A DNA stretch of 64,000 nucleotides from Voacanga thouarsii (Eukaryota > Streptophyta > Magnoliopsida > Gentianales > Apocynaceae), in NCBI GenBank assembly GCA_026120185.1, contig JANUWF010001184.1:1-64000 (forward strand), given 5' to 3'. Made by a program: the position numbers and the translations under genes. Each line of letters starts with the position of its first letter. Position 1 is the stretch's first letter. Positions 12,250 through 53,150 of the stretch are shown piece after piece. The notes beneath the pieces were generated by a model, which was not told where the DNA came from, made no database searches, and saw nothing but the letters and a program-made list of their open reading frames with translations.

Positions 12250-13310
12250 GATTAAATTCCCATTCCTGGAAAATTTACACATGAAATTAACCAATGAATC
12301 TATATCTTGGCAGGTATCAATTAACCTTTAATTACTTTGTCCCTACAATTAACCCCTTTGTCCAAGCAAGTTAAGAGCCAACAAATAAGAAATTAATGAA
12401 TTGAGACCACCATCAACCCCTTTGTCCAAGCAAGTTAATGGAAAGAAACAATCAATTAATCTCGGAATAAGCACAAGTAATTAAACACCAAGAATAACAA
12501 TCAATTAATCAAAAGGTCAAATAACTCTAAAAACCTCGAATATCTAAAACAATGTCAAATTACAATAAAATAACTAATACATAATTGTCAAGAAAAAGAA
12601 AACAAAGTAAAAGAAAGTACTTATAGACAAGCTTCCTTCTTCTTCCTTCGAAGACCTTCTTGCACAACCCTCTTTAATTGAAAAATTCCTCCTTTAATTT
12701 GAGTGATTTTCTATGATGATCTATGAATTCTCCTCTTTTCTCTTATGTTTTCATCTATTTATAGGCTTAGGGAGTGCCTAAACTCGTTGGTGTAATGTTC
12801 TTAGCTGAGTAGAAGTAGGAAGATACTAAAACTCCACAGATTACCAAAAATTACATGCAAAAATCGAAGCTCCATCTTTTCCTCAGAGTATAGCCGGTGC
12901 TGCCTTGGCTGTTGGAGCTGGCGCCGGTTGTATTCTGTTTCTTCCGTTGTTCGCCGATTTTGTCTTGATTTCCATGCACTATTATCCAGAGTGCAGCGGC
13001 GCCACCGTGGCTACTAGATCCGGTGCCGGTTCGGTTCTATTTCGGTCCTGTTTCAACAATTTTTCATCTTCTCGAAGTGCGTGTTAATAGCTCATGGCCA
13101 GCGCCGGTTCTTCTAGCCTAGCCGATGCCGCCTCTATTTTGTTTTGCGACGTTTTTGCTTTGTTTTACCCCTAAAATCTAAAATAATGAACAAAATACCT
13201 TTCCAAGAGTAAAATCTCAAATATGAAGGAACATGACTAGTTATTGAACAAAATGTATGACAAAAGAGCCTCAAATAACTAGAAAAAATATGACTAATTT
13301 AGGCCCTATT
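12250..13310 (-). repeat. Tat/Athila-type LTR relic inside element B
   Basis: This stretch resembles the LTRs at 34362-35570 and 35570-36822 in layout: AATTAA-rich U5-like part (12250-12620), a CTTCTTC-rich leader part, TATA-like TATAAATAG on the minus strand near 12763-12772, then a GC island upstream of it. It replaces the reverse transcriptase to integrase region of element B. Exact ends and target-site duplication were not resolved. Confidence 0.5.
12894..13131. promoter_or_regulatory. GC island: three 102-bp units of paired GGYGCC palindromes
   Basis: Cores are at 12896 and 12920, 12998 and 13022, 13100 and 13124. Each pair is exactly 24 nt apart, and units repeat every 102 bp. The fullest form of each core is the 10-bp palindrome CCGGCGCCGG. 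The 18 nt between the two cores of a pair differ from unit to unit. The island lies about 120-360 bp upstream of the minus-strand TATA-like box of the LTR relic. Function unknown. Confidence 0.75.
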
Positions 13311-13329
13311 AGGATATATATTCTTTACC

Positions 13330-13790
13330 ATCACTGCGTTCTACCCTCGATAATCTATACACATTCGTAATGACCCATTCCTCTTCTTAACAAATAATAC
13401 AGGTGCTAGCCACTATAAAGTACTTGGCCGAATGAACCTTTGCTTCAATAATTCCTGTAATTATTTCTTAAGCTCTTGTAATTTTGTGGGTGTCATTCGA
13501 TAAAGAATCCTTCAAATTGGTTCTGCCGATGGCACTAGATCAATGGAAAACTCTACTTCTCTCTTCAACGGTAACTTCTTCAATTCTGCTAGAAAAACAC
13601 CAAAATGCTCATTCACAACAGGGATATCTTTAGGTTTCTTAACATCTCCTGGCTTATTAATTATATTGGCCAAGTATTTATTACACCCTTTTCTAATTAT
13701 CTTTCGGTCCTTGAGTCCTGATATAAAAGCCATACTTTTTCTTCCAACTTCACCTACAAATTCCAATATAAGTTTCCCAGGTTGACGGAA
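13330..13790 (-). pseudogene. pol: Element B reverse transcriptase N-terminus (truncated)
   Basis: The minus-strand frame at 13512-13766 includes LPLKREVEFSIDLVPSAEPI, the conserved entry to Ty3/gypsy reverse transcriptase, preceded by a PVVNEHFGVF linker. Further on (to about 13330) the frame decays with stops after the VDYR-like region. The catalytic palm motif is missing because the sequence runs into the LTR relic. Confidence 0.75.
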
Positions 13791-14230
13791 TTGTATTACC
13801 TTATGTCTACAGTTAACTTGAGCATGATACTAAGATAACCAATTCATGCCCCAAGATAGCATCATAACCCTCTATGGGCAAACATATCAAATCCTCTCCT
13901 AATATTTCATCTCCTACTAAGATCTTACAATTCCTATGTATTTTCTCACTATTCATTTACTTTCCCAATGGAGTACTGACAATTATTTCATATGAAGTTT
14001 CTTCCCCTTTTATTCTTATAGAATCAAGAATGTATTGGTAACAAAAAAATGTGTAGATCCGGGATCTACCAATACTTTAGCATTATGATAAAAAATAAGA
14101 AGCGTAACTTCCACCACTGCAGCCTGGTTGTCCATCTTCTCTAATGTTACTACTCGAGCATTCATTTAGGGTTTGACAGGTCCAGCCCTAGAGGTAGAAG
14201 CTTATCCTGGGTTCTCTTTTCCTAGTCCTG
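13791..14230 (-). pseudogene. pol: Element B aspartic protease region
   Basis: The minus-strand translation around 14040-14080 gives VLVDPGSTHFFV, which is the Tekay-type retropepsin active-site block (normally D-[ST]-G or DPGST). It follows a linker with AAVVEVTL. Several stops break the frame. It sits between the gag zinc knuckle and the reverse transcriptase start, as expected. Confidence 0.65.
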
Positions 14231-14289
14231 AATTCTGTCATTGATTGTTTCCTCCAAGCCGACTTCATACTTATGTCCTTTAAGGGTGT

Positions 14290-14624
14290 GGGCAGCTAAA
14301 ACTCTTATGTCCTACTTTTCCCACAGTTAAAGCATCTAAAAGAGGGTTGTCCTCTAGTCGGGCTTCCTCTCCTCTGCATCTTCCTTTTCTTTTGCCATTG
14401 GTGCCTTCCAAACATTTTCTGACTCATACCCCAAAATCCACTTTGATCTTTCTTGCTCATATTCACATTAACTCCAGTAATAGTCTTAGATAACTGTTGG
14501 ATATTATCGGCCATCTTTTGGAAGGTTTGGAATAAAGGGTGGTCCAAAGTTGCAAGGTGGGGACCTTTCTCCTGCGGCTCCTCCACCATCAGCTTAGGGT
14601 TATTTCGAGTAGTTCACTTAGGAG
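14290..14624 (-). pseudogene. gag: Element B Gag, internally deleted
   Basis: A start near 14624 (MPPK, followed by a stop codon) leads to an open frame from 14589 to 14305. It ends in a zinc-knuckle beginning CFNCGKS after a basic stretch (QWQKKRKMQRRG). The capsid core seen in element A (RLRGPARDWW) is missing, so the central part has been deleted. Product would not be a working capsid protein. Confidence 0.65.
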
Positions 14625-14837
14625 GCATCTGTATAGTTCATAAAATTTTACTGATATAGCAATGTCCCATAGCTTAAAAGTGATCATAAAAATAGGTACA
14701 GTGCACATAGTAAGAACATAACACATATTCATTCTCATTTATCATAAAATCAGTACAAAATTTATGTGCCAAGTACATGGTCATATACACTGGTCGAATT
14801 GTACATATCACACTATATATATCTACATCTCATCCTC

Positions 14838-15577: not shown

Positions 15578-15579
15578 AT

Positions 15580-15683: not shown

Positions 15684-15730
<47 letters not shown>

Positions 15731-15896: not shown

Positions 15897-16908
15897 CGAT
15901 ATGATCTTGTGTGGGCTTTTCTTGGTGTTGTGAGTGGTTTAGTGGTTATGTGTTCAGCTCAACCAATGAGACCAAAAACAAGGATTCTTCTTGAGACAAA
16001 AAAAAAAAAAATGAGAAAATGAAATAACAACCTATCCTCTATCAAACCCTTGAAGAACTAAGCTTCAAAGACCCTCAAGAATAGTAGAAAGTTCTACTAT
16101 AATCTCACCCCAATATCCTTGAAACAACAAAGGCAAACAAGAACAAATAGAACAGAGAAAATAGGAACCCAAGTAATGTAATTCAAACAAACCTTAGAAG
16201 AACAAAGCAACTAAGACCTATTCAAAGAAACCACATTGGATTATTCAAAAGATTTATAGACTCATTCATAAGGAGGACTAACCCTGAACTATGGTCTTGA
16301 TCAAGATGAACAAGGAGGCTAGGGCCTCTCAAGATTCTCTCTCAAATTTGAATTAAAGTGTGTGAATTGTGTTGTCAAATCACTAAAGGTTCTATTTATA
16401 CTACTTTAACCCTAGAAAAGTAATCCCTAAGGTTCTATTACAGTTTAGGGTCTTAATAAGTCTTTACAAACACTTACAATTGGAGAAAACATAAAAAACA
16501 CGGGCAGCCGACGGCTGCCCAGGCTACAGTAAGTACCAATTTGGACACTATAACCAGCGCCGGTTGCAAATTGTCTTCGGGTGATCGAATTCCAGAATGA
16601 AGTCGGCGCCGGTTATACTGCTTGGACTGGCATCGAATGCCCGCTGAAAGGCTAACTTTGGTCAAATTTCATCCGTCTTTGATGTCGGCTTGAGTTTTAG
16701 TTGTGGTCCTTCTTGGATTGTCATTAAAATAAGCTCTTGGCTAGATTCCTCAACCTTCCAACCTTCTTCCATCCTCAAGCATGATTTTATGAGCAATTGA
16801 AACTCATGTTGAAGCTTCTTGGACCTAGATCTTGTCATTAGTCCTTGTCCTTGCATGGTTACGCCTCCCCCTCCTTAATCTTGATCCTCATGATGAAGCG
16901 GAGTCTCA
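15897..16908 (-). repeat. 3' LTR of element C
   Basis: Starts TGAGACTCCGC on the minus strand at 16908 and ends near CATATCG at 15897. A TATA-like TATAAATAG lies at about 16389-16398. A GC island lies upstream of it at 16502-16634. Compared with the 5' LTR, several CG sites have become TA or CA. Confidence 0.82.
16502..16634. promoter_or_regulatory. Paired-palindrome GC island in the U3 of LTR C (3' copy, decayed)
   Basis: Cores are at 16532 (decayed to AGTACC) and 16556, then 16605 and 16629; both pairs are 24 nt apart, with 73 bp between pairs. An inverted repeat GGGCAGCCG-A-CGGCTGCCC at 16502-16520 keeps the same spacing. On the minus strand the island is about 100-240 bp upstream of the TATA-like box. 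The intact copy is at 28806-28942. Confidence 0.7.
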
Positions 16909-17850
16909 TAATATCCCCCTTCTTGAAAAGGATTCGTCTCCGAATCGTTACCATCATCTACATCAAAGTGAGAGAGGTCACTAACATTAAAAGTGGCTCT
17001 AACATGATACTCACCGAGTAAATCTATCTTATAAGTGTTATCTCTAACTTTGGCGAGAACTTGAAATGGACCATTCCCCATTGGATCTAGTTTGCTCCAT
17101 TGTTGCGTGGGGAATCTCTCCTTGCAAAGTTGCACCCATACCCAATCTCCTAGCTCAAATGACATTTTTTTCCTTCCTTGATTACGCTTATGGGCGATCT
17201 CTTCATTGCGTTTTGCAATGGTTGCTTTCACCTTATCATGGAGTGCCCTCACCATTTCCGCCTTCTTAGCTCCATCGAGGTTCAACCATTCACCTATAGG
17301 TAAAGGAACCAAATCTAAAGGAGTTAGAGGATTAAAACCATATACAATTCTAAAAGGAGAATAAGAAGTGGTAAAGTGAATAGCCCTATTGTAAGCAAAC
17401 TCAATGTATGGCAAGCACACTTCCCAATTTTTCATGTTCTTCTTGATTATAGTCCGCAAGAGTTGGGTGAGTGTTCGGTTGACCACCTCCATTTGTTCGT
17501 CTGTTTGAGGATGACAAGCTATTAAAAACAAGAGATTAGTACCAAGTTTGTTCCATAAAACTCTCCAAAAGTGGCTAAAGAATTTAGTATCCCTATCCAA
17601 GACAATAGTCCTTGGAATCCCGTGCATTTTTACCACTTCCGTAAAGAATAAATCTGTAATATAGAACGCATCATTAGTAAGCCACAAAATGAGCCATTTT
17701 AGAGATCGATCAACAATCACAAATATGGAGTCTTTACCCCCCTTGGACCTAGGCAATCCTAAGATGAAGTCTATTGAAATATCAACCTAAGACACATTAG
17801 GTGTGGGCAAAGGAGTATAAAGACCATGTGGAAGGGATCTAGAGTTTGCT
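16875..17850 (-). pseudogene. pol: Element C integrase, core and C-terminus
   Basis: The open part (17756-16875, 293 codons) has DRSLKW, the second catalytic Asp in VLDRDTKF, HPQTDEQMEVVNRTL with the catalytic Glu, and the GDWVWV and GPFQVL C-terminal core. The first catalytic Asp is in IDFILGLP, just upstream near 17780. A stop codon precedes it where other integrases have Trp. The end, ETPLHHEDQD, lies inside the LTR: the stop is at 16875, while the LTR starts at 16908. There is no chromodomain. Confidence 0.85.
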
Positions 17851-17853
17851 CGC

Positions 17854-23238: not shown

Positions 23239-25382
23239 TGTTGGGTATCTCAGGCTCGTATCCTATACGGCGCAGCGAAAAATAAAATGAAATACCCTTC
23301 CAGGACTTTTCTATGTGTGAAAAACAAGACATAACGACAATAAAGGCAACATCTTTTACCTTTGGGTGATCATGCGGAGAACAAAATTTTCTTCTTCAAG
23401 TTGAGGTGCGATCCAGCAATCCTCGTGATCAACCTCCACGTGAGTTGAACGTCTACCCACTATAATCACAGTGTGTGATTATCTCTAATAGTAATCCACA
23501 CAGAGGAATACTCAAGCACGTAACATTCTGTGCTAGGAGAAATTCTAAGTGGCGGCTAGGGTTCTTCTTCACGATCAAATCGAGAGAGAAGAAGAAGAAG
23601 AAGAAGAAGAAGAAGAAGAAGAAGAAGAAGAAGAAGAAGAAGAAGAAGAAGAAGAAGAAGAAGAAGAAGAAGAAGAAGAAGAAGAAGAAGAAGAAGAAGA
23701 AGAAGAAGAAGAAGAAGAAGAAGAAGAAGAAGAAGAAGAAGAAGAAGAAGAAGAAGAAGAAGAAGAAGAAGAAGAAGAAGAAGAAGAAGAAGAAGAAGAA
23801 GAAGAAGAAGAAGAAGAAGAAGAAGAAGAAGAAGAAGAAGAAGAAGAAGAAGAAGAAGAAGAAGAAGAAGAAGAAGAAGAAGAAGAAGAAGAAGAAGAAG
23901 AAGAAGAAGAAGAAGAAGAAGAAGAAGAAGAAGAAGAAGAAGAAGAAGAAGAAGAAGAAGAAGAAGAAGAAGAAGAAGAAGAAGAACAAGAAGAAGAAGA
24001 AGAAGAACAAGAAGAAGAAGAAGAAGAGAAGGTTTAGGTGGCTGCTGGTTTTTCACGTGAATCACCCTTAGGGTTTTTCAGTTATATCATCATAAAATCA
24101 AAAAATCACTAAAAATCTGGAATTAAAAAACAATTAGAGTTCTCTAATTGTAATTGGAAATATTAAGTTCTCACAATTACAACTTGTACCACAAATTATA
24201 ACTAATTATAATTTGTCCACAACAACTTCTCTTTCTCTCAATTAACCACACAATGTTATCAAATAGCATCTTGAGTATATAATCCTCTATTGTGTGTGAC
24301 CTATTAGGTTTTCCAGTTAATTGGTAGAGAATATGAATTAATCCAAACATATTTGAGATTAATAATCCATAATTAATTAGAATTAATCCTATTAATTCTA
24401 ATCAGGATTGGTTTAATAATTCATCAATTAATAAACCCATATTCCCAGATCATGAGCGGTATCTAGCAACATATCATGACCACCAAAGAGTCCAGGAAGT
24501 CAAGTGGCTTGACATGAACCCTTCAATAACAAACTTCAGTGCAATTAACTCATTTCACCATACAATATTTCATTCGGTTTGGAGTACGGAATTAGTGCCA
24601 ACTCCCTCCACAAATAATTCTGGCCCGAATACAATAGTACTTGTACCAGTAACCCACTACTCTAGATGTATATCAATTGAAACTATTTCCAATACACAAT
24701 CTCCTTGGCCAAGGACTTTCCAAGTAGTAATTCCTACAAGTAGCCGTGAGACATTCGCCCCTACTAGTAGAAGTGGTGAATTTTTTATTGACCCTCTCAA
24801 CTACTTTCGTTTACCTCACGATGTACCCAATATCCATTTCATAGGCGGCCCTTGATCGAGCTCCAGAGATTGGAATAAAAGTACAAAGCTCAGCAAACAA
24901 AGTATCTTGGACATCTCAAGTCTAAGGATACTTGCACGTTTGCTATATTGAGATTATATCACTGGCACTAAATAGTTATCCATATGATTATCTCAAAGGT
25001 AGGTCATCCAATGAACTTGTTCCATTAACAAGTATCCATGTGTTAACTTTGAGTATCTCAATACTCACGGTTATGAGAACCACCGCCTAATCAAATTAGG
25101 AAGTGTAACACATGCTAGTCTTAACGCATTAATGATGTGCTGTCTTATTAATACTATGACTAGGGACTATTTAAGTACTAACACCCTCCAGTGTAGTAGG
25201 AATCTTATATCATGATCTCAATCATGATTTGCTTAACACAGTGTTGTATTAGGGACTTTATTGAACAGTTATATTGTTTAAAGTAAACAAAAAGAAACTG
25301 TAAGATAAATAATGCCTTTTATTAAAATAAAATGTGTCATATACAATGTACAAGTGATTGCCTTTAGGGCACAACAGTAACA
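23239..25382 (-). mobile_element. Solo copia LTR 2 with expanded GAA repeat (duplication CATCC)
   Basis: 2144 bp, minus strand, from TGTTGGGTATCTC to AGTAACA. CATCC flanks both sides (23234-23238 and 25383-25387). It is longer than its sisters (about 1.70-1.72 kb) because of the GAA array at 23588-24027. Confidence 0.92.
23588..24027. repeat. GAA microsatellite, about 133 uninterrupted units
   Basis: The run is pure from 23588 to 23986 and then carries two GAACAA interruptions. Sister LTRs have a short CTT/GAA or GA tract in the same place (44881-44918, 52203-52233, 56454-56470, 61101-61130). The long reading frames across it are artefacts. Confidence 0.97.
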
Positions 25383-28233: not shown

Positions 28234-28805
28234 TTTTAGTGGTTATGTGTTCAGCTCAACTAATGAGACAAAAAACGGGGATTTTTCTTGAGATAAAAAA
28301 AAAAAAGAGAAAATGAAATAACAAACTACCCTCTATCAAACACTTGAAGAACTAAGCTTCAAAAACCCTCAAGAATAGTAGAAAATTCTACTATAATCTC
28401 ACCCCAATATCCTTGAAGCAACAAAGGCAACTAAGAACAAATATAATAGATAAAATAGACACATAAGTAATGGAATTCAAACAAACTTGAGAAGAATAAA
28501 GCAACTAAGACCCATTCAAAGTAACCACATTGAATTATCCAAAAGATTTATAGACTCATTCACAAGAAGGACTAACCCTTAAGCATGGTCTTGATCAAAA
28601 TGAACAAGGAGGCTAGGCTTCTCAAGATTCTCACTCAAATTTGAATTAATGTGTGTGAATTGTGTTATCAAATCACTAAAGGTTCTATTTATACTACTCT
28701 AACCCTAACTAAGTAATCCTTGAGATTCTATTATACTTTAGGGTCTTAATAAGTCTTTACAAACACTTAAAATTGAAGAAAATCGGATAAAACATAAAAA
28801 ATGCA

Positions 28806-28942
28806 GTGCAGCCGACGGCTGCCCAGGCTGTAGTCGGCGCCGGTTTGGACACTACAGTCGGCGCTGGTTGTGAACTGTCTTTGGGCTATCGAATGCCAGA
28901 ATGAAGCCGGCGCCAGTTCTGCTGCTTGGGCCAGTGCCAGAT
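28806..28942. promoter_or_regulatory. Paired-palindrome GC island in the U3 of LTR C (5' copy)
   Basis: Cores GGCGCC at 28836, GGCGCT at 28860, GGCGCC at 28909 and AGTGCC at 28933. Within-pair distance is 24 and between pairs is 73. The first pair can also fold as a 10-bp RNA stem (TCGGCGCCGG with TCGGCGCTGG, using three G-U pairs) with a 14-nt loop. An inverted repeat GCAGCCG-A-CGGCTGC precedes it in register. Confidence 0.75.
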
Positions 28943-29214
28943 GTTCAAATGAAGGCCTACTTTGGTCAAATTTCAATCGTCTTTGATGCAGGATTGAGTT
29001 CTAGTTGTGGTCCTTCTTGGATAGTCATTAAAATGAACTCTTGGCTAGCTTCCTCAACCTTCCAACCTTCTTCCATCCTCAAGCATGGTTTTATGAGCAA
29101 TTGAAACTTATCTTGAAGCTTCTTAGACCTAGATCTTGTCATCGGTCCTTGTCATTGCATGGTCACGCCTCCCCCTCCATGATCTTGACCTCCGTGATGA
29201 AGTGAAGTCTCATC

Positions 29215-32200
29215 GTCTACTTCGCTCTGGAACCTATAAAAAGGTAAGATAAAACACGTGTGAGTGATGAATCACCCAGCGAGTTCCGTGTGTGCTAGTA
29301 CTTTATGAAAGAATAGAGTACATAAAACTTTTGCGAAATAGCATATCATTTTTTCACTAGAAATAATTTCAAGTTTCTATAAAAAAGAGTTTATCCATAA
29401 CTCAATTATTTTTGAAAAATTATATTTTACTTTCAAAGCATTGCCCCGATTTCTAAATTACAAGCACTTTTTAACAAAAGGTCAGCCTGTATGCATGTCC
29501 TATAGTCGTTGCCTTTAGCGCCACGTATCATTGTACTGAGATCATCGCTTCCAATATTCAATCCGTACGTCACCGAAAAGTAAGTACGCGCCGTAGCGTA
29601 CTACAATCAACAAATGTACGTAGTACACAATCTTTTACTTTCTATAGTAAGCCAAGGGTCCCAATCCCGACGTTAATCACCATTAAGGTAGCAAGAGATT
29701 TGAACAATGCCAGGTATCCAGCCCAGCTCATGAACAACCCAACTCACAAAGTGCACACAAGGCACGCCAATTTCCAGATACTAGACGGCTAGCCAGGACG
29801 ACTTATCCCAATGTTCTGTCACCTTATTTGGAGTAAAACAATCCTTAGAACTAGCTAGGTTACTTACAGTTATCTATCTCTAACATGAGCTAGTATAAAG
29901 ATCAAAGTCGTTGCTGAGTACTCAACATCACCACTATCAACCTCTTCTGACTGATCAGGCTAGAGGGTTATCTGATCTCATAAAATTTTCAAATCAAATA
30001 TTTTGGGGCAAAAAAACACTTTCCAATATATGATTCCACTAACTTACAAGTTAGATCATCATTCACATAGGCTCCACAAGGCTAATCGATTCATTTTATA
30101 GGCACATCAGGCCAATAAAATAATTTTAGGGGTCAAAATGTCTTTTTCTAAAAGTCAATCTCATCATGAGAGATCATTTTCCAAAACTGTGTCAAAACAT
30201 GTTAAAAAGTTCTTTTCACACATCAAAACCAGTTTCCAAGAGTATTAATTTCGTTTTTCCCGTACTCGATCACAAAAGTCATTTTTAAAGGTATTCAGGT
30301 TATTTTACCCATACCCAATTCCAAAAGACTTTTCGAGGGTATTTGGGTCATTTTACCCTTACCTGATTTGAGAAGTATTCACAAGAGTTCCAATAAGGAT
30401 ATTTTAGTCATTTACTAAATACCCGATTCCAAAGGTTTCATAAAGCATTCCAATAAGAACATTTGACTCATTTTCAAAATACTCGATTCCAAAAGGAATT
30501 TATTTCAAGAAATCTAGAATTCCAATCCCAAAAGTGAATTAAATTTAAAGTTTCCAAACACATTTCTATAAAATGTTTCAATAAGGGCATTCTGGTAAAT
30601 TTATGAATACCCGATTTCAAGATTTACCATTTTTGAAAACCCCAAGTATTTAATCTAAAAGGACTAAATTCACAAAATTCATGCTTTAATCATCCATTAA
30701 GGTTTCCAAGCCAATTATGAAGTTTATTTAAGCCCAAATGGAGCAAAATAATTCTTGCTCAGATAAACCTTAAATACATTCAGGGATTTTCAAAATGGTA
30801 TAAAACATGGTATTTCGTGGAAAGATGAAGCATAGTAGCTTTCAAAAGGTTTTAGAAATCAAAGGGACTCACCTCGTGTTCTAACTAAACTCTTTTCGTT
30901 TACGGTCGTTCAACCACCGTTTCCACCGTTTTCAACGTTCCGTTGGCCATTTATCTATAAACCACACTAAATATCGTTTTTGGATCAAATTGTGTTCGGC
31001 TAAACAATAGTAGGCATCTGGCCAACGTGCCCGATGGGTAACTGACGTCTAGCCAAAGTGCTCGATGGTTAGTCGACGTCCAACTAACGTTTAGCCGACA
31101 GGACCGACGGTTAAAGAAAACGTTCAACTTTCATTCATGTCGTTTGTTCATTTCTTTCATTTTCCTTTTTCCACATAGTTTCTTCCTTTGTATACAAGGG
31201 ATTCACTTCATATTTCCCATTTATTTAATCCAAAATCACATAGTTAATCATCCCAAAGTTCATCCACTTTCGGACTCATTTTTCTGGAATTTCACTGGTT
31301 GACACATAATTTTGTTTTGAACATAATTTTCAATCCACAACTCCGATTTGTCTCTATGATATACCAAAATTACCATAAGACTCTTAAATTTAATTCTATA
31401 TAAGCCCTTTTCAGTGTTCTATTTTATGTGACACGATACTAGTCAAAAATAGCGGTAGTAGTTATGCTTCAATTCTACTATTCATGCTTTCCTTTGTTTT
31501 CCTCTAGCCTTTAACACCTTGGAACCTATAATTCATTCAATTTTCCTTCAAATCATCTTTAATTCTGTGATTTTAAGATTCCAATAGGTCACAAGAGTCA
31601 TGCTTCTTCAACACAAATTCACTTCTTCTAATCAAAAGCTAGTATAATTCATTTTCCAACTAAGTAACTTCCATTTTCATTCTACTTTGGTTATCATCTC
31701 ATCAACCAAAAGCAATCCTTCAAATTACAATACATATTTAGTTCTTTCTCACACAGAACATTATCCTTAAACCTTCTAGGTAGTCGGCACACATAAGCAT
31801 ACACAAGGTTCATACACAAAGTTCACAAACCGTGGTTTTTGATCTAAAATCATGTTTTCATGTTAAAACTCATTCCAAAATAATTACCGTAATGATATCT
31901 ATGACTTTAATTCTTGAAGCATAGAATTTTACCTTGTATGTGGGATCTCTTCGCTTGATTTTACTCCAAGAACACCAAGAACACACACACTTCTTTCTTT
32001 CTTTCTCCTTTTCTTTTTCTTCCTATTTTTCTCTAGGTTTTCTTTCTATTTTCTTTCTCTATTCCTTATGGACGAATTTCTTGCTGAAATTCAGATCCTC
32101 AACTGCCATTCTTGGTCAAATATTGGCCATTCATTTCTCATTTTCATTAATTGTATAGTGGTTAAAGCATACGTGTGTTCCAATGAAAAATTTACACACT

Positions 32201-32969
32201 ATTTCACTTATTTTTTCGTCCTCAAAAATTCCCTTCATTTCTTCTTGCATGGCTGCCAATTTATAATGCCAATTTTCAGCTATTCATTCATCTTCTCATG
32301 GTCCAAACATTAGCCAATCACATTGCACAAGACCTTAATCAAACGGGCCCAGAAGTGATGTGTTCCAATTACAAAATTGCACATAATTCTTTATTTATTT
32401 TGTAATCGTTTAATTCCATGCATCTTGCTCGAACCCCTCATGAAACCTCTCTAGAATTTACACGTGTCCATAGGCTACCAATCACAAAATGCCACACGCA
32501 CCATTTTAGCCGCGATTTCCTAGTTTCTTCATAAATGACCAAAATTGGGTCCGGAATGAAAAAATATTATATTTCACCATTCTACTCCCATTGGTAATAC
32601 TTAAATTCTTCAATTCCTTCTTAGTTTGGTAAAATTTGTGATCAAAGTCACAGGAGTGGTTAAAATGACGAAAATGCTCCCCGGCAACCCAGATAGCATA
32701 ATTCACACCAAAGCGTGCATTTTATCGCACTGATCAATTTCTATTCTCATCGTACCCTCAAATTCTTATTTTATTAATAATAGTGGCCTTTTAAAGATTT
32801 AGGGTATGCGTAGAACAAATTCAATAATTACATCCAGGTTCCGACAAAATATTATTATACTAAAATATTCGTCTCATTACTGCGATCATCTTTTGTTCTG
32901 GCCATTGATATAAATTCTCATTCTATTACAAATAGCGGCTAATCGAAGGTAAAAAGGTGGGGCATTACA
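29215..32969 (-). repeat. 5' LTR of element B, remaining part
   Basis: Continues the LTR interrupted at 15896 and matches 8400-12168 along its length, with diverged repeats near 30240-30630 and a CG island near 30910-31110. It ends CATTACA, followed by TTGAT. Confidence 0.9.
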
Positions 32970-32974
32970 TTGAT

Positions 32975-33283: not shown

Positions 33284-34130
33284 TGATAGGAATCAAATTA
33301 CACATGAAGGTCATTTTTAAGAAGGGAGAAGAAGGACAAAAACACACTTTATGGTTCTATAGGTAAGAACAATATTCAAAAGGATTCAGGAGAATTTTTA
33401 AAATAACAAATTTAACAAACCTAGGTCCAAGAAGATTGTGAATAGAGATGGATGGTAAAGGAAGGGCCAAAAGATGCACAACACAAGCAATAGTCCAAGT
33501 GGAGGATCGAGCCAGTTTTTAAACAAGGATTAAAGACCAAAGAGTAACAAGAAGAGTTCAAAATGATCAACATTTCATTTGGAAGATCAAGGGGACACAT
33601 ATGAAAGAAATGAAGGTCAAATGAACATAGATTGGAGTGCAATGAAACAATTGAAGGTGGCCAGAGCCTATCTGGTGCCAAGTGAGAATTTTGGACCCGA
33701 TGTCGACCTAAAGTCGACCTAATTCTATTCTGGACAAAACCAACCCGGTGCCGAGTGCGTGTACCTAGACCTGGCGCTGGCCCTAGTCGGGTTTATCTCG
33801 ACTTTTTGTTATTTTTCTTGCCTTCAGCTTTTTACTCTTGTAATTTAATTTTCACAACTTTTATATATTTTAACTTATTTTAAGGCATGTAATAAGGCCT
33901 TAAAGCTTGAATTAAGGCCATTTAATAGTTAGGATTAGTTTGCTAATTGGTTTAGGGCATGACATCCATAAATATGCCATTATAGCTATTGTAAACACAA
34001 CTTTTGGATATTTTGAATAGAGAAATCTTTTGTTCTCTCTAGAGAGAGTTCTTGAGGGTGATCCTCTTGGGAGATTCCCAAATCATTGTAGCTCCTTTCA
34101 TTTTGTGCCTAAAAATAATTGTCCAAGATG
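33284..34130 (+). repeat. LTR-like relic downstream of the gypsy pol tail
   Basis: Begins TGATAGG after the purine tract. GGYGCC-type cores occur at 33674 with a decayed partner near 33699, then 33747 and 33773; the first-to-first distance is 73 bp, as in LTR C. A leader-like part (TTGGGAGATTCCCAAATCA near 34068) follows. The end was not resolved. Confidence 0.5.
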
Positions 34131-34340: not shown

Positions 34341-35570
34341 CCTGCAATGGCACCAAAAACTGGATACATGATATTTAATTTTGGCAAAATTAAATAACAG
34401 GAGGACACAAACAATTTTTAATAAAATGCTAACTACTAAAACCATACATAGAGCAAGTATACCCTTCATATAGTATAGGGAATAGCAAGTTTGAATCCAC
34501 AGGAACTTAGGCTCCCACCTTACTTTTTCCAAATCTTTATTGTTTAACCAATAAAATAAAGGAATAAATGGAACACTAACCTAATAAACTACTATACTAG
34601 AGAATAGATCAAATTCAAACAAGAAAAGTAACAAGAATAATGAAGAAGTGAGAATAAGGAGAAAAGACATGTATATAAATAGCAATCCCTGAAATTATAA
34701 CAATGATTGACTCACAATTATTACAATTAATTATCATTCTGGCACCATGAAAGAATAAACTAGAATCACTTTGTTTACAATCTATGATTTCCTATCTTCT
34801 ATGTAACTAATGGATATATTATATCTCGCTAGTCTTATTGAAAAGATGCATTACACATAATGTTTAAAAATACCCTTATATTCTAGGTGAAATCAACCAA
34901 TCCTTAAATTACTTAACTTCATGTTCTTAACCTTCTTTTGTAATCTAGTTAAGATATAATAGATATGAAATCAATTAAATTAAACTCACTTCTAACTTCA
35001 TTTTTGAAGTCCATTAGAAAGGATGATCATTCAATCAATTCATTAATTAAACCAAATAATCAAATACCGAAAATAATAACCAATTGAATAAAAAGCTAAA
35101 ATTAATACAAATCCATAAATCTAGAAATATTCTCTAAATACAATTAAAACATATAAGTTCAACCTTAACAAAATAGATGTACAAAGAAAGAAAGGAAAAA
35201 ATTGTGTAATCCCCTTCTCCTTCATAATCTTCTTGATAAAGCTCCCCTTTTTCTCCAAGACTTTCTCGATCCTCCTTATTCATGTGTTCTTGGATTCTCT
35301 AGGAGCTCTCTAAGGTTCTCCCATACCCAAGAGTGAAAACTCTCTTTATAAGTGCTAATATCTTGTATTTAGAGCTTTGAAGAATGCTAAATTATTTTCA
35401 TAGGGCCAAATTTTGCCTATAATTTCCTAGTTACTTGAGATTGTTTTGTGATACTTTTATTTCAACAACTAGCCATTTTCCTTTCTATTTGATATTTTTC
35501 TTATAGAAAGTGTTTTTGGTAATTTATTAAATAAATTCAATGATTTAGAGTAGAATTATAAATTTCCAGT
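34341..35570 (-). repeat. Tat/Athila-type LTR with primer-binding site, minus orientation
   Basis: At 34361-34341 the minus strand reads AGTTTTTGGTGCCATTGCAGG, split here as AGTTTTTGGTGCCATT plus GCAGG. This resembles the GGCGCCGTTGCCGGGGA-type junction of Tat/Athila elements. The LTR body to the right is AATTAA-rich and matches the plus-strand LTR that follows, in inverted orientation. A TATA-like TATAAAGAG is near 35345-35353. Confidence 0.55.
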
Positions 35571-36822
35571 GTTAAATCGGTGTCTGCCCAAAGTTGTTGA
35601 ACCGGTCATAGTTCTATTATGGAAAAAAAGAAGATAACAAAGTAAAACTAGAGGAAACCAGAGCTAGATTGGCACTGGTCCAGACGAAGTGACCAGGCAC
35701 TCGCCAAACTCTTTTAAGGAGGTTCAAAGTTCCTTTTCAAATCAAATTAGGAATTGCCTAAGAGGTTTGCTTGTTTCCAATCTGTATTCGGCCCAAGACT
35801 TTTGAAGGACGATTTTTAGCAATCAAGGGGCTTATTTAACTAAGAACAAGTGAATATTAATGTATGAATTCAAGAAATCATAGCTACATTCATTCATTGA
35901 AGGGGAATTCATCACTTAAAGGAGAATTGTTTTAAGGAGGATCTCAAATGAGAACGAAGATGACTTGTCTATGAGTTCTATCTAAGACCCTTGTATTCTT
36001 TTTTTTTTTTTTTAACAATGATGAGATTAATGTTCTTAGTGTAATTGAGTATTTTTTTCGAATTGGTGTTAATGAATTAATTTAGTCTTTTGTTTAATTG
36101 ATTATTCTTTTTGGTATTTGATTACTTGTTTTTAAGGGTGAATTGATGAGATTGGACTATTCTTCTAATTAACTTGAGAAAGAAGTTAGGAGATAGTTTT
36201 CATTGCTCAATTCTTGATTTACATTCTTAACTAATTTGAGAGAGAGGTTAAGTTAAGATTAAGTAGTCAAAATTCATTGATTTCACATAGAGATACGGGA
36301 ATTAATGATTTCATGCCATTGTCACCTAGAGATGGGGAAAATAATCAAGGAATTATGTTCTATACATCTGTTTGTTATTTTAGTGAGACAGAGATATCCA
36401 TTAGAATTGACTAAGAGAGAGTGAAATCATAACTCAAGAGAGAGTGGGCTCTACATTAAACTCGTTCATGATGCCAAGGAAAGTAATTAATTGTAACAAT
36501 TGCTAATGATTTATTGTCATGTTTTCAAAAGTAACTGTTTAATTACATGTTTTTCTCTCCAAGAGTTGTCTATATATTTTGTTTTTACCTTTATTTTTAT
36601 TTTTACTCCTCATCAATCTAATTGATAGGTTAAACATTGAATAAAAAGTAATTAGTGTGTACTTGTCCCTTGAGGATCGATACTCAGTAATTCCCTATAC
36701 TATGCTTAATGATGAGTGCACTTGCTCATGTGTGTAATTTAGGATTAATGTTTTATTTAAACTTAATTGGAAATGGACACAAAATTGCATGATTTTTATA
36801 TACCCAAGTTTAACGCATTAAG
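35570..36822 (+). repeat. 5' LTR of the Athila-like element, plus orientation
   Basis: It ends near ACGCATTA just before the primer-binding-like site at 36823. Phrases such as TTCATGATGCCA with AAGTAATTAATTG (36466-36496) are the inverse of 34735-34770. Paired GGCACT cores 25 nt apart lie at 35671 and 35696. The left end was not resolved. Confidence 0.55.
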
Positions 36823-38330: not shown

Positions 38331-39552
38331 TGGTTAACTGGCCAAACTTCTTGGTGATTGTTAAACAAGATCTCTGTCTGGGAACACAGAGAATAATCTT
38401 TGCGACCAAGATTGTAGAAAACGATGAATTTACTTACTTTCCTACTTTCAGTTTGAATAAATTTTTTTATTTCAATATTCATATTTTTGCTTACTTTGTG
38501 TTGTAATTCATGCATACTTTTAAGAATTAGGCTTTTTAAAAAAAATATACGAAAAACAGAAAGATTTTATTCTAGACTGAACTGACTAGGCACCGGTCTA
38601 AGTGCTCTAACATGGCATTGGGTTAGGTCGGAAAAACTATACAACAACAGATAAAATCGGCACCGGTCCAATTTCTCTGAACAAGTGCTAGGTCACGTCG
38701 GACATTGCAGTTAAAAGGCCGATTTCTTCTCATTTTTTTCGAAACTTCTAAACCCACCACTGTCTTTTCAACACAATCCCCATCAGATCATTCTAACCAT
38801 TCCAAAAGCACCTTCCCAACATTAAATCCTTGATTTCCACTTAAAGATTTACCTTCAAATCAAGAAAAATCTCATTTTTCTTCAAAGTTGCAAGTTTTTA
38901 ATACATCAAAGTGGTGCACGATTTCTTCATTCACTTTGCATTGGATGATAACCCATACATTGAACAACATTGTGGTATGTTTGTTTTGGACTTTCTATGG
39001 TTCAATTTTGAGAATTTTATTTTTGGCATTTCGTAGGTATATTTTGGCAGAATTTCCTATATCCATCTTGGTTGTTTTAATTTAATGACATTTTTTTAAA
39101 TCCTTGACAATAGAATAGCATGGGTTCATGATTGGTAATGTTATTTTGTGATAGAAATTCATGTTTTCACGTTAATATGGCCGATTGCACATACTTCTTG
39201 TGTTATAATTTAATGGAGAAATTTTTTATGATTGGGTAATATTTGTTGTGGAATTCCATTGATCATATTATTATACTTGCTTTAGGTTTTCAGTTTGATC
39301 ATGATCTTTATGATGCATACTAGCCTACATTGCCTTCTTGAGATATTATATTAATATTGTGCTTGGATTGGAAAATTGTTTGTTTTGTAGGGATTTTGAG
39401 AAGATTGTGTTGTAGTAATTTAGTTTTTGTGGAGAATGGTGGTTCAGTTGAGAATTGTGGTTGTTGATTGGTGAGCTTGGTTGAGAGTTGTGGTCGTGTG
39501 ATTTGTGGTGAATTTTTCTTCTCTTGACCTATTTTTCTTCTTTTTGTGAGTA
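38331..39552 (+). other. Region between the Athila-like ORFs, with a GC island
   Basis: No credible coding frame. A paired-core island is at 38587-38691: GGCACC at 38589 with GGCATT at 38614, and GGCACC at 38659 with AGTGCT at 38684. Both pairs are 25 nt apart, 70 bp from pair to pair. The rest is T-rich and looks untranslated. Confidence 0.5.
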
Positions 39553-43584: not shown

Positions 43585-45261
43585 TATTAGTGTTGTGCCC
43601 TAGAGGTAATCACTTGTACATTGTATATGACACATTTTATTTTAATAAAAGGCATTATTTATCTTATAGTTTCTTTTATTTACTTTTAAGTAATATATCT
43701 GTTCGATAAAGTCCCTAGTACAACACTGTGTTAAAGAAATTATGATAGAGATCATGATATGAGATTCCTACTACACTGTATAGTGTTAGTACTTAAATAG
43801 TCTCTAGTCATAGTATTAATGAGACAAACATCATTAATACGTTAAGACTAGCATGTGTTAAACTTCCTGATTTGATCAGGTGGTGGTTCTCATATCCGTG
43901 AGTATTGAGATACTCCAAGTTAACACATGGATGCTTGTTAATGGAACAAGTTTATTAGATGACCTAGCTTTGAGATAATCACATGGATAACTATTTAGTG
44001 CCAGTGATATAATCTCAATATAGCAAACGTGTAAGTATCCTTAGACTGGAGATGTCCAAGGTACTTTGTTTGCTGAGCATTGTACTTTGATTCCAATTTC
44101 CAGAGCTTGATCGAGGGCTGCCTATGGGATGGATATTCGGTACGTTGTGAGATAAACAAAAGTAGTTGAGATGGTCAATAAAGGATTCATCACTCCTAAT
44201 AGTAGGAGTGAATATCTCACGGACACTTGTAGGAATTATTACTCGAGAAGTCCTTAGCCAAGGCATATGTGTATTGGAAATAGTTCCAATTGATACACAT
44301 ATAGAATAGTGGGTTCCTGGTACAAGTACTATTGTATTCGGGCCAGAATTAATTCTGGAGGGTGTTGGCCCTAATTTCGTACTCTAAACTGAATGAGATA
44401 TTGTATGGTGAAAGGAGTTAATTGTACTGAAGGTTGTTATTGAAGGGTTCATGTCAAGCCACTTGACTTCTTGGATTCTTGGGTGGTCATGATGTGTTGC
44501 TAGATACCGCTCATGACCTGAGAATATGGGTTTATTAATTGATGAATTAATAAACCAATCTTGATTAAAATTAATAGGATTAATTCTAATTAATTATGGA
44601 TTATTAATCTCAAAGACGTTTGGATTAATTCATGTCCGCTACCAATTGATAACATTGTAGGGTTAATTGCGAGAAAGAGAAGTTGTTGTGGACAAATTAT
44701 AATTAGTTATAATTTGTGGTCCGAATTGTAATTGTGAGAACTTGATGTTTCCAATTACAATTAGGGAACTCTAATTTTTTTAGAATTCCAGATTTTCAGT
44801 GAATTTTTTGATTTTATGATGATACAACCGAAAACCCTAGAGTGGGATTCACATGAAAATTGCAGCTACCTAAACATTCTCTTCTTCTTCTTCTTCTTCT
44901 TCTTCTTCTTCTTCTTCTCTCGATTGTTCTTGTAAACAACCCCACCCGCTATCTTTTTCTGCTAGCATAGGAAATTTTGGTGCTTGAGTTTTCCTCTGTG
45001 TGGATTACTGTTAGAGATAATCACACACTATAATTATAGTGGTTAGATGTTCAACTCTCGTGGAGTTTGATCAAGAGGATTGCTAGATCGCGCATCGACT
45101 TGAAGAAGAAATTTTTGTTCTTCGGACGATCAAAGAAAGGTAAAAAATTGTTACCTTTGTTATCTTTATATCTTGTTTTCCACACACAGGCAAGTCCTGG
45201 GATGGTATCTCTTTTATTCTTTCACTGCGCCGTATAGGATACGAGCCAGAGATACCCAACA
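43585..45261 (+). repeat. 5' LTR of the plus-strand copia element, 1677 bp
   Basis: Compared with the 3' LTR it lacks about 66 bp near 44645. That block includes the TATATACTCAAG stretch present at 51951-51962. A CTT tract (44881-44918) is longer here than in the 3' LTR. Confidence 0.92.
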
Positions 45262-45262: not shown

Positions 45263-45279
45263 TGGTATCAGAGCCATGC
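45263..45279 (+). other. Primer-binding site of the plus-strand copia element
   Basis: TGGTATCAGAGCCATGC, complementary to initiator tRNA-Met, one base after the LTR end. Confidence 0.93.
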
Positions 45280-47089
45280 TATGTATGGTCTATGTACATT
45301 GTTTTGGCATGAAAAACTATTTTCATATATTCGTGTTTGTCTTTGTTCACTGTGAAAATCATTTTCACTCGAGTCAAAATCATTTTGAGTTTTGTGGGTT
45401 GGGTCCGTAGCACAATATGACTGTGTAAAAGTTATAGCATATTTCACAAGGTGCTTTCTTTATGTGCTGAAAATTTTCTGCAGAAAAATGTTTTCTTGAA
45501 CATGGTTGTTGCCTTCCATTTCATCTTGTGAATTTGATTTTCTGTTTTGTTTTGTTTAAACTAATAAATTGGCTGTTGTTTTGAGCTTCAAAATAGAAAA
45601 TTCTACTGAGAAATGTTCTCACTGATTTGTTGCAGAAGATTAGGGCACCAGAAACTATTTTTGGAAAAGTTTTCTGAAAAATCACTGCCACGTCCCGATT
45701 ATAGCCAGCGCCGGCTCTGGCCTTCAAACCGGTGCTGGTTCCGTTCTATTCGCGATGTCTAGAAATCATTTTTGGAAGAGAATTAAAAAAAAAACCAGAA
45801 CAGAGCCGGCGCCGGCTTTGGCTTCGAAACATGTGCCGGTTCTGCTCTGTTTACGACGTTCCAGCTATTTAAAAAAAAAAATCCTGGAATAGAATTTTGA
45901 ATGGGAAAAATCTCATTTGATGAGAAGCGGTAAAATAAAAATTTTTCCACAGGGGCGTTACCCCCCTGACCCCCACCCGCTGACCGGCCAGAGGGACCGT
46001 CGTTTTCGTTGCCGGAGAAAGGACCCAAAAGCATTTTCTCAAAATTAGTTTTGAGATAAACAATTTTATTTTTCAAAATAGTGATTTTGATAATTTAAAA
46101 TTAATGCATTTTTCTAAAACATTAATTTTAGAATTTGTTTAAGCATAGTCAATAGCATAGTGGACGGTTATTGACTAAAACTAATTATATCTATTCATGC
46201 ATTTTATAGTTTTGGTTTTTTATAAAATAAGGCCTACGTGTCCTGCCTTCTCTAGAATTCTTGTGTAATTCTCTTCTTATCTAACTCCCTTCGAATGTAA
46301 CACGAGATTTTCTCTCTTCTCATCTAACTCCCTTCGAATGAAATTAGGTAAGACTTTCTACTTAAATCATGCATGAACACATAGGGTTAACTATATTAAT
46401 TTCTTTTATGACTCAAAGAAATTAATTTAGGGTAAAGTCCATAACCATATCACGTAATCGCTTTATTACCATGATTATCAATTATGTGATTTATTGATTT
46501 GTATGCATGTCATTCAACGAAGTCCCTAAAAGGAACAAATCCCTCAATTAATATTAAACCTAATTCCTTCCGTTAATATTGTAAGAAGGAGAGTCCTTTT
46601 TCAAGACCAGGTTGTTGGGCAAACCCAAGCCTACTTGACATTGGGCAAGTTCAAGCTATGGAATTAAATTCCTTTGGAATTAAATCCTGATTAATGGGTT
46701 GAGTTTAACTAAATTCTTTATCCTTATTGGGCAAACTCAAGCATAAAAAAAATTAGAGGAAAAGTTGGGGTTGCCTAAAAGACATTAAGATTAAAAACTG
46801 TTAATCACCTAATGATCCAGTAGTTATATACGATGTTATTGATATTGGATACCTACCAATGAACTTAAGGGTGGCTTGTTGGGCAAACCCAATGTTATTC
46901 TTGAGGAATTTGGGTACCGGTCCACTAGGAAAGCTTCCAATGGGCTTTCCCGACTCAGTAGTAGGGGCTATTGGTTTGAGTAAAATAGTGGAGTAAAAAT
47001 GCGTTTAATTAAAGTCCTAATTATTTGCATATCATGTGCATATACAAGTAGCTAATGCTCTCTATCTTTACATCTAGATCAATTGCATC
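45280..47089 (+). other. Long untranslated leader of the copia element (1.8 kb)
   Basis: It is not coding. It holds a paired-palindrome GC island (45705-45839). It also has four copies of a short near-palindrome TTGGGCAAACCCAA (46614, 46641, 46727, 46879). The leader of the minus-strand sister element (63491-64000) has matching repeats. Such leaders usually hold packaging or dimerisation signals, which is inference here. Confidence 0.7.
45705..45839 (+). promoter_or_regulatory. Paired-palindrome GC island in the copia leader
   Basis: Cores AGCGCC at 45707 and GGTGCT at 45731, then GGCGCC at 45808 and TGTGCC at 45832. Both pairs are exactly 24 nt apart and the two pairs are 101 bp apart. The first pair, CCAGCGCCGG and CCGGTGCTGG, is complementary over 10 bp with one G-U. 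The A at position 3 of the first is matched by a T in the second. Confidence 0.75.
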
Positions 47090-50330: not shown

Positions 50331-50836
50331 GTAAGATTCCATATGCCTCACCAGTTAGATCTATCATGTACACTATGATATGTACTAGGCCCGATGTATC
50401 TTGTGCTCTCAGTTTGACAAGCATATACCAATCTGACCGTGGGGAAGGTCATTGGGTGGCTATAAAGAACATTCTTAAGAACTTACAAAGGACTAAGGAT
50501 ATGTTCTTAGTATATGGAGAAGGTGATTTGAAAATAAACGGGTATACTGATGCTAGTTTTCATTCTGGTAAAGATGATTTCAAATCACAATCTAGCTACG
50601 TGTTTACAATGTGCGGAGGGGCAATAAGTTGGAAAAGTACCAAACAAGAGACTATTTTCGACTCTTCGATAGAAATTGAGTACGTGGCTGCTTTTGAAGT
50701 AGCTAAGGAAATAAAAATAGAGAGAGTTCCCATGGATATGAACATAGCTAACCCGCTTACAAAAGCACTATCCCAAAAGAAACATGATTGTCATGTTGAG
50801 TCATTCGGTATTAGATACATAAATGATTGGCTCTAG
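50331..50836 (+). pseudogene. pol: Copia RNase H with internal deletion (plus-strand copy)
   Basis: Open for 169 codons: PYASPVRSIMYTMICTRPDV, YTDASFHSGKDDFKSQSSYV, GGAISWKSTKQETI and EIEYVAAFEVAKEI. It then jumps straight to NIANPLTKALSQKK. Copia RNase H normally has about 50-55 more residues here, including the CDN block. The minus-strand copy still has this region near 57960-58170. An in-frame deletion therefore keeps the frame open without a working enzyme. Confidence 0.85.
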
Positions 50837-50839
50837 TGC

Positions 50840-50850
50840 AAGTGGGAGTT
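50840..50850 (+). other. Polypurine tract of the plus-strand copia element
   Basis: AAGTGGGAGTT just before the LTR start at 50851, four bases after the pol stop codon. Confidence 0.85.
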
Positions 50851-52572
50851 TATTAGTGTTGTGCCCTAGAAGCAATCACTTGTACATTGTATATGGCATA
50901 TTTTATTTTAATAAAAGATATTATTTACCTTACAGTTTCTTTTGTTTACTTTTAAGTAATAGAACTGTTTGATAAAGTCTATAGTACAACACTATGTTTA
51001 GGAAATCATGATAGAGATCATAATATGAGATTCCTACTACACTGTGTAGTGTTAATGCTTAAATAGTCCCTAGTCGTAGTATTAATGAGATATGACATCA
51101 TTAATGCGTTAAAACTAGCAAGTGTTAGACTTCCTAATTTGATCAGGCGGTGGTTCTCATATCCGTGAGTATTGAGATACTCAAAGTTAACACATGGATT
51201 CTTGTAAATGGAACAAGTTCATTGGATGAATTAGCTTTCAGATAATCATATGGATAACTATTTAGTGCCAGTGATATAATCTCAATATAGCAAATGTGCA
51301 AGTATCCTTAGACTTGAGATCTCCATGGTACTTTATTTGCTGAGATTGTACTTTGCTTCCAATCTTCGGACCTCGATCGAGGGTCACCTACCGGATGGAT
51401 ATTGAGTACATTGTGAGGTAAACAAAAGTAGTTTAAAGGGTCAATAAAGGATTCACCACTTCTAATAGTAGGGGCAAATATCTCATGGCCACTTGTAAGA
51501 ATTACTACTTGAGAAGTCCTTAGCCAAGGCATATGTGTATTGGAAATAGTTCCAAGTGATACACATCTAGAGTAGTGGGTTCCTGGTACAAGTACTATTG
51601 TATTCGGGCCATAATTAATTCTGGAGGGAGTTGGTACTAATTCCGTACTCCAAACTGAATGAGTTATTGCATGGTGAAATGAGTTAATTGTACTAAAGTT
51701 TGTTATTAAAGGGTTCATGTCAAGCCACTTGACTTCTTGGATTGTTGGGTGGTTATGATGTGTTGTTAGACATCGCTCATGATCTAAGAAAATGGTTTTA
51801 TTAATTGATGAATTAATAAACCAATCCTGATTAGAATTAATAGGATTAATTCTAATTAATTATGGATTATTAATCTCAAAGACGTTTGGATTAATTCATG
51901 TTCCCTGCCAATTTATTGGGAAACCTAATGTGTCACACATAATAAAGGATTATATACTCAAGATATTATTTGATAACATATTGGGGTTAATTGCGAGTAA
52001 GAGAAGTTGTTGTGGACAAATTATAATTAGTTATAGTTTGTGGTCCAAATTATAATTAAGAGAACTTAATATTTCCAATTACAATTAGGGAACTCTAAGT
52101 GTTTTAGAATTTTAGATTTTCAGTGAATTTTTTAGTTTTATGATGATATAATTGAAAACCCTAGAGTGGGATTCACATGAAAATTGCAGCCGCCTAAACC
52201 TTCTCTCCTTCTTCTTCTTCTCTCTCTCTCTCGATTGTTCTTGTGAAGAACCTAAGTCGCCATCTTTTTCTGCTAGCACAGGAAATTTTGGTACTTGAGT
52301 TTTCCTCTGTGTGGATTACTGTTAGAGATAATCACACACTATGATTATAGTGGTTTGATGTTCAACTCTCGTGGAGTTTGATCAAGAGGATTGCTGGATC
52401 GCGCCTCGACTTGAAAAAGAAATTTTTGTTCTTCGGACGATCAAAGTATGGTAAAAAGATTTTACCTTTATTATCTTTATATCTTGTTTTCTACACATAG
52501 GCAGGTCCTGGGATGGTATCTCGTTTATTCTTCCGCTGCGCCGTATAGTATACGAGCTAGAGATACCCAACA
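50851..52572 (+). repeat. 3' LTR of the plus-strand copia element, 1722 bp
   Basis: Matches 43585-45261 and, in reverse, the four solo LTRs and the LTR at 56104-57828. It is directly followed by GTGGTATCAAAGGC, a primer-binding-like site, so it may also have served as a 5' LTR. Confidence 0.92.
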
Positions 52573-53150
52573 GTGGTATCAAAGGCTTACTATGTGTGGT
52601 CTAATTAGAATAATTAATTTAGTCCAAAACGTTAAACTAAGAGTCCAATGGCCCACTCCAGTTTAACCTAAGGTTTTATTTGGATTAAACAGAAGGATTG
52701 GAGATAATCATTTTTTTTACAGACTCTTCTGTGTGGAAAAAGAAGCACACATCTCTCTCTCTCTCTCTTTCTCTCTCTCTCAAGAAAATATTCCTTAGTT
52801 CTGTAGTTGTTCACCAAATAGAATTAGGCAGGCCATATACTGGAAGATCAAGAGTTTGGCGTTCACTTACATGCAAAGACGGAGTAGGAGGCTTGCAGGC
52901 ATCGCACTAGAGGTTTCTACCAGGGCACGTACCCCAGTTGCGCACATTCTGGTCCAGCCAATTCTTAGAACGAGGAAAAGAGGTAAATTTTTTTTTACCT
53001 CGTAATCAATATAGAGCTTAACCGGCGCCGACTAGGGTTGTCGGAGCCGGCGCCGGCTCTGTTCGGTTCTTCTGTTCTTCAGTTTTCTAGTTTTTTTTAC
53101 TTTCGCTTCGGCTACATGCCCTATGTTTTTCCTTTTTATACCTTCACAAA
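52573..53150 (+). other. Second copia primer-binding site and truncated leader
   Basis: GTGGTATCAAAGGCTTACTA (52573-52592) parallels GTGGTATCAGAGCCATGCTA after the left LTR. A GC island with GGCGCC cores at 53024 and 53049 lies 450 bp from this site, against 444 bp in the left leader. A CT microsatellite is at 52753-52781. After about 53150 element D gag-protease sequence resumes. This gives LTR-internal-LTR-leader, not a simple insertion. Confidence 0.7.

Follow-up and report, generated by a model that had tools for sequence, protein, structure and literature searches.

A stretch of 64,000 nt from the Voacanga thouarsii genome (the window: positions 1 to 64,000, forward strand, of contig JANUWF010001184.1, assembly GCA_026120185.1) consists of nested long terminal repeat (LTR) retrotransposons, as judged by self-comparison and Pfam, and carries a recurrent, mirror-symmetric module of 54–55 bp. 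Each module holds a pair of GC-rich palindromes, at a spacing of 24 or 25 bases, between outer boxes, in the order CAGA-N4-ARCCGGYGCCGGYT-N10/11-ARCCGGYGCCGGYT-N4-TCTG. This anatomy, with its fixed spacing and mirrored CAGA and TCTG boxes, recurs between flanks that do not match one another: in the U3 region of two LTR families (family 1 and family 2), in copia leaders and in gypsy internal DNA. In the two LTR families it lies upstream of the sense TATA box. We think it probable, reading from sequence, that the module is an enhancer at which a host DNA-binding protein would dock and activate transcription. A wider proposal is put forward more tentatively, at somewhat less than even chances: one regulator, either host-encoded or a trans-acting anti-silencing factor encoded by an element, may read the 54-bp dyad module in thousands of gypsy and copia copies and so join them in one regulon. 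The module would then be a composite cis-element, so far without a name, with a spacing rule and outer boxes of its own.

Genome-wide pattern searches were run in the window's own assembly, a single genome of 1.35 Gb; they count exact matches and leave decayed copies uncounted, and the counts of repeats are lower bounds. The 14-mer ARCCGGCGCCGGYT had 6,999 matches, and its reversed control had 1. The pattern CCGGCGCCGGN{12,18}GGYGCC gave 1,714 + 1,671 matches and its reversed control 2 + 2. When inner Y/R flanks were demanded, there were 731 matches at spacing 24–25, 30 at 22–23 and 1 at 26–27, and the controls gave none; a pair in which both palindromes are exact is counted on both strands. 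When spacings from 12 to 42 were allowed, of the first 50 distinct strict pairs among the matches listed 41 were at 24 or 25, with three at 22 and six elsewhere. There is a genome-wide spacing peak with a hard upper edge. A first-pass annotation of the window, which had described paired GGYGCC cores at a nearly constant distance, had named such a peak as its check, and the peak is present. The outer box is tied to the palindrome in a similar way: CAGAN{0,24}CCGGCGCCGG had 6,924 matches against 5 for the control, and among the matches listed the gap between CAGA and palindrome was exactly 6 in 62 of 100, with a second register, at gap 1, in 17 of 100.

Sixty stretches were sampled, 20 of them near places among the first 100 matches listed for CCGGCGCCGGN{12,18}GGYGCC and 40 from the 50 strict pairs. 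For the latter, 351 bases each were retrieved around the pair, and flanks played no part in the choice. In 36 of these 40 the spacer measures 14 or 15; they were aligned as 72 half-sites, yielding the consensus YAGA-N4-AR-CCGGCGCCGG-YT-NN-R. Each palindrome is flanked on its outer side by a CAGA box that starts 10 bases away and reads as the mirrored TCTG at the far end of the module; at least three of the four bases of the box are present at −10 in 33 of 36 modules on the left and, as TCTG, in 31 of 36 on the right, these modules being unselected for flanks. That offset was the best one on the left in seven of nine flank groups and on the right in six of nine. A second set of 58 oriented modules came from 10-kb loci and the window (13 others were omitted, their orientation being unknown or their spacing other than 24 or 25). 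In it the best box offset was identical in family 1, an old relative of family 1, the gypsy LTR family and both copia-leader groups.

Within the 36 modules, little information lies in the middle of the spacer, in the N4 stretches or in what follows outward of CAGA. A single copied repeat was rejected on this ground, in agreement with the first-pass annotation. The same annotation had taken the spacer to be unconserved, which holds for its variable and uninformative middle but not for its ends, constrained as YTNNR...YNNAR. It had also seen the two cores and overlooked the outer boxes. Each palindrome contains several CG/CHG sites.

Some copies vary this layout. In family 1 (loci L014, L019, L020 and L026) one palindrome of a pair is often AGGCGGCGCCGGCT, which breaks its own symmetry and creates GCGGCG; whether the first or the second member is affected varies along the array. 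Two family-2 copies (L016:4957-5020 and L017:4979-5042) have a row of three palindrome-like sites, one every 25 bp, in place of the usual two, and the site closest to the TATA box is degenerate. An extra palindrome, GCAGCCGACGGCTGC, adjoins family-2 modules of the window at 28808-28822 and 16504-16518, and related forms come after the module in many family-2 rows of the genome-wide palindrome–TATA listing.

In the window itself, strict GGYGCC alone gives only two pairs at 24–26. Degenerate cores such as AGTACC, GATGCC, GGCATC and AGTGCT are common there, and an exact-core search looks sparse because many partner cores have decayed. With up to three mismatches, CCGGCGCCGG has 49 matches, against a mean of 16.8 and a maximum of 24 in 30 dinucleotide shuffles, and forms 10 pairs at 24–26, against 0 in all 30. 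A half-site motif model was trained on the 36 modules outside the window and then scanned across it with a cut of 9 bits. It returned 15 modules at 14.1–66.0 bits; the top score of 40 shuffled windows was 6.8. All 14 places listed in the first-pass annotation hold two GGYGCC-like cores at a spacing of 24, 25 or 26, and the model recovered 13 of them, the exception being the decayed pair at 38589/38614, which fell under the cut. Three distant homologues of the element around that pair (∼66% identity) have a strong module at the matching place. The model added a pair missing from the earlier list, 35579/35604, and an overlapping one, 28814/28836. Shuffles, reversed controls and spacing counts rule out chance as an explanation.

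Flanks of 36 small loci fell into nine groups at E 1e-10 and into five to seven at looser cut-offs. A host region carries one to three modules, with an array period mostly of ∼102 or 73 bp. Family-1 LTRs likewise have one to three, often 101–103 bp apart, and the ∼102-bp period is common to family 1 and the copia leaders. In L014 modules occur in both family-1 LTRs, with a Transposase_32 open reading frame (ORF) between them. Family 2 is Ty3/gypsy: gag and RVT_1 domains (Retrotrans_gag, RVT_1) were found in L017 and gag in L023, and on the minus strand between the two family-2 LTRs of the window lie an SH3_Tf2-1 ORF and a protease match that is weak and below threshold. The module also occurs in a fifth host, the internal DNA of gypsy elements close to gag (L015, L027 and 38589 in the window), where spacing 22 is present as well. 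In L020 two modules, 73 bp from each other, precede a gypsy protease ORF. Host lineages were resolved to superfamily level. The first-pass annotation had counted different hosts for the pairs of the window. The dissimilar flanks bear this out, but the independent hosts are fewer than listed: the 16532/16605 and 28836/28909 pairs most likely belong to the two LTRs of one element, and the 35671 pair lies in a diverged relative of the LTR family at 12896, with flanks that match family 1 at 68–72% on the right and 71–81% on the left.

Copia hosts were recognized by copia gag/RVT_2 domains. Their module starts at a nearly constant distance after the primer-binding site (PBS): 440 nt for the 45707 module, 446 for that at 53024, 441 in L011 and 438 in L022, with 0, 2, 2 and 1 mismatches in the PBS, respectively. 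No convincing PBS was found for L012, L024 and L025, three of the seven copia-leader loci. The flank of the 53024 module matches these three at 77–79%, and this module is most likely in another copia leader. The right-hand copia LTR (50853..52571, in the 50853-53066 stretch) has a PBS-like site behind it and then leader-like sequence that includes a module. It thus resembles the 5′ LTR of another copia copy, a cut-off one, more than an ordinary 3′ LTR.

Position relative to the promoter is the other regularity. A palindrome lies 115–145 bp upstream of TATAAATA at 774 places in the genome (control 0), against 10 for the reverse order, TATAAATA then palindrome (control 1). In family 1 the last detected module ends 128–129 bp from a sense TATAAAWA in 11 of 18 clusters, and in family 2 the distance from module cluster to TATA is 114–137 bp in all four clusters scanned.

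The fixed distances between two self-symmetric sites and their mirrored outer boxes, with variable letters in between, lead us to favour a protein complex on DNA. The first-pass annotation had offered a paired RNA stem beside a protein site. In such a hairpin the palindromes would pair in the transcript, closed by CAGA and TCTG, and either signal packaging or dimerisation or yield silencing small RNAs, as proposed for Sirevirus LTR palindromes. We hold this to be quite unlikely. Flank pairing does exceed that at random window positions (5.7 versus 4.2 of 16), as the mirrored boxes would predict, and all seven modules chosen for RNA folding gave stable folds (z −1.6 to −4.4). Leaders of copia elements are part of the transcript, their group surpasses the rest in N4 pairing (0.25–0.75), and small RNAs are drawn to Sirevirus palindrome clusters (as cited in the accessible text of PMC10760457). 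Covariation, however, does not go beyond the fixed letters. Among the 58 oriented modules, pairing within modules is not raised over pairing between modules, either arm to arm (9.29 of 14 versus 9.47) or in the flanks (5.72 of 16 versus 5.91). For N4 in the 36 modules the value is 0.208 within modules and 0.311 between groups (0.494 and 0.471 with G-U pairs and equal group weights). Spacer ends pair less within modules than between them, and family 1 has a recurrent G-G mismatch between the arms. Dimerisation or packaging is further disfavoured by the two host families that carry the module in U3, upstream of TATA. An RNA packaging or dimerisation hairpin was rejected as the main function for want of covariation between the arms, although the module may have an RNA function in copia leaders.

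A reader of the module need not be an activator. As a handle for silencing or anti-silencing, the CpG/CHG-rich module would recruit a repressor, a methylation reader or an anti-silencing protein encoded by an element. The multiple CG/CHG sites per palindrome would suit this, one site in many families fits a common recogniser, and Sireviruses have CpG islands formed by similar repeats (PMC2829016, accessible text). A pure silencing target would be expected to be lost, yet thousands of exact copies remain, and a fixed place upstream of TATA suits activation better; we rate the handle unlikely. There is also a very slim chance that the module is a short repeat without function, recently shuffled among elements by template switching. 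Its presence in many families and the ∼102-bp period in both family 1 and copia leaders are what shuffling would leave. Against it, only the boxes and palindromes are common to the copies, and spacing is conserved though sequence is not.

Several observations weigh against an enhancer, beside the stable folds and the N4 pairing of the copia-leader group given above. In family 1, five of the 18 clusters lie at 124 or 206–230 bp and two have no sense-side TATA. None of the seven copia-leader clusters is followed by a sense TATAAAWA in the next 600 bp, which limits the promoter-proximal argument to the LTR families. Copia ORFs lie near the family-2 locus L016, where we take them to be other insertions. 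In two of the four N4 columns pairing is higher within modules than between them (0.55 versus 0.38 and 0.48 versus 0.40), in the other two lower, and covariation inside a palindrome was seen for the second (z 3.5) and not the first (z −0.9). The sampled strict pairs, moreover, are a selected, well-preserved subset.

Under the enhancer reading, a protein dimer would sit on each palindrome and also contact the CAGA box outside it. Across the 24–25 bp gap the dimers would meet directly or through a common partner; such contact is our proposed reason why shortening by 2 is slightly tolerated and lengthening by 2 hardly. Arrayed modules would be additive in effect. In copia elements, where the module is in the transcribed leader, its role would be that of a downstream enhancer. 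The gain or retention of the module by unrelated families would be explained by a single host protein that drives them all. Two points make us favour an activator over a repressor or an anti-silencing factor: the place of the module in U3, and the retention of the site by the elements. The first candidate for the reader is a LOB-domain (LBD) factor. LBD factors bind GCGGCG, which is found in the family-1 variant AGGCGGCGCCGG, and a dimeric reader of this class is described as discriminating palindromic DNA like calipers (PMC10118128, accessible text). The likeness is one of motif only, to the GC-rich core GCGGC(G); the accessible text of that paper does not list the core, spacing and outer boxes of the module as an LBD site.

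Coordinates are given in Table 1. Two further repeats were noted in the window. A 3.75-kb stretch occurs twice, at 8416-12169 and 29224-32971, with 85% identity, adjoining the family-1 LTR and a family-2 LTR, respectively. Inside a copia LTR copy, 23587-24031 holds ∼149 tandem AGA copies, an unusually long array that is 98% matching. An Rfam search at gathering scores gave no match, and ARAGORN found no tRNA.

Table 1. Modules, TATA boxes and LTRs in the window; scores in bits are from the half-site model
Feature	Position	Strand	Remarks
Approximate family-1 LTR block	12234..13312	-	blastn to L010 and others; block in both L014 LTRs
TATA box downstream of A1-A3	12756..12763	-	TATAAATA in 12/12 aligned segments
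Module A1, cores 12896/12920	12884..12937	-	58.1 bits; CAGA and TCTG boxes; 129 bp from TATA, family-1 LTR
Module A2, cores 12998/13022	12986..13039	-	20.1 bits
Module A3, cores 13100/13124	13088..13141	-	39.2 bits; A1-A3 period 102 bp
Family-2 (Ty3/gypsy) LTR, probable 3′ LTR	15938..16909	-	86% to 28235-29213
TATA box downstream of B1/B2	16393..16400	-	
Module B1, cores 16532/16556	16520..16573	-	32.3 bits; first core degenerate
Module B2, cores 16605/16629	16593..16646	-	39.4 bits; 73 bp from B1
Family-2 LTR, probable 5′ LTR of the same element as 15938..16909	28235..29213	-	self-comparison
TATA box downstream of C1/C2	28686..28693	-	
Module C1, cores 28836/28860	28824..28877	-	55.8 bits
Module C2, cores 28909/28933	28897..28950	-	29.6 bits
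Module D, cores 33747/33773	33735..33790	.	36.4 bits; spacing 26
Additional module, cores 35579/35604	35567..35621	.	18.5 bits; 92 bp from 35671 pair
Module E, cores 35671/35696	35659..35713	+	15.4 bits; old family-1 LTR relative
Module F1, cores 38589/38614	38577..38631	+	decayed; under 9-bit cut
Module F2, cores 38659/38684	38647..38701	+	17.2 bits
Copia LTR	43587..45261	+	PBS TGGTATCAGAG next, at 45263
Module G1, cores 45707/45731	45695..45748	+	57.7 bits; copia leader; palindrome 440 nt after PBS
Module G2, cores 45808/45832	45796..45849	+	62.7 bits; CAGA and TCTG exact
Second copia LTR	50853..52571	+	PBS-like site then at 52574
Module H, cores 53024/53049	53012..53066	+	66.0 bits; probable copia leader; 446 nt after PBS-like site

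A composite module common to two superfamilies, strictly spaced and present as ∼7,000 exact palindromes in one genome, would mean that mobile elements without kinship either arrived at the same regulatory key independently or passed it among themselves. This raises the question of which protein reads the module, and whether the host wakes or silences many families at once through that protein. The thousands of natural module variants are material for reading the binding code.

LTR families usually have regulatory boxes of their own. The boxes of Tnt1 and Tto1 and the heat elements of ONSEN are short, repeated, protein-binding and family-specific, and lie upstream of TATA. The module resembles them as a short repeated box upstream of TATA, its own protein binding being proposed here, and differs in that one composite unit spans families of two superfamilies. 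Tandem arrays of gypsy elements are described as family-specific in work on Retand, which has nothing resembling the module (PMC11963269, accessible text). Among the matches listed, literature searches found no description of the module, and the top 20 of 84 matches to the palindrome letters were unrelated work. The statement of the first-pass annotation that no named element has this layout holds in part, similar palindromic repeats being known from Sirevirus LTRs.

These repeats, the repeated motif (RM) boxes, are the nearest known counterpart of the module, going by the accessible text of two papers. RM boxes are palindromes with a CGG-CCG signature (Bousios et al. 2010, PMC2829016), and a maize study connects Sirevirus-type palindromes with cis-regulation and small RNAs (PMC10760457). 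By the criteria given for them, RM boxes form clusters within the LTR, a short way upstream of TATA, and number at least eight copies per element; they are called Sirevirus-specific and absent from classic retrotransposons (PMC2829016). The CCGGCGCCGG core, in 6,999 exact 14-mers, is a palindrome of the CGG-CCG type. The module lies 114–145 bp upstream of TATA in two LTR families and in the leader in copia hosts, and each L014 LTR has three modules (six palindromes), with fewer in most other loci, counted per locus and not per whole element. It is not confined to Sireviruses: it occurs in a Ty3/gypsy LTR family (L017) and, at L015 and L027, close to gypsy gag. Like RM boxes, it has a CGG..CCG core (here CGG-CG-CCG), is CpG-rich, and is repeated in internal non-coding DNA and, in two of its host families, in U3 upstream of TATA. 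Fixed pairing is not mentioned for RM boxes in the accessible text of PMC2829016; to what is described there, the module adds a pairing rule, outer boxes and a spread across superfamilies.

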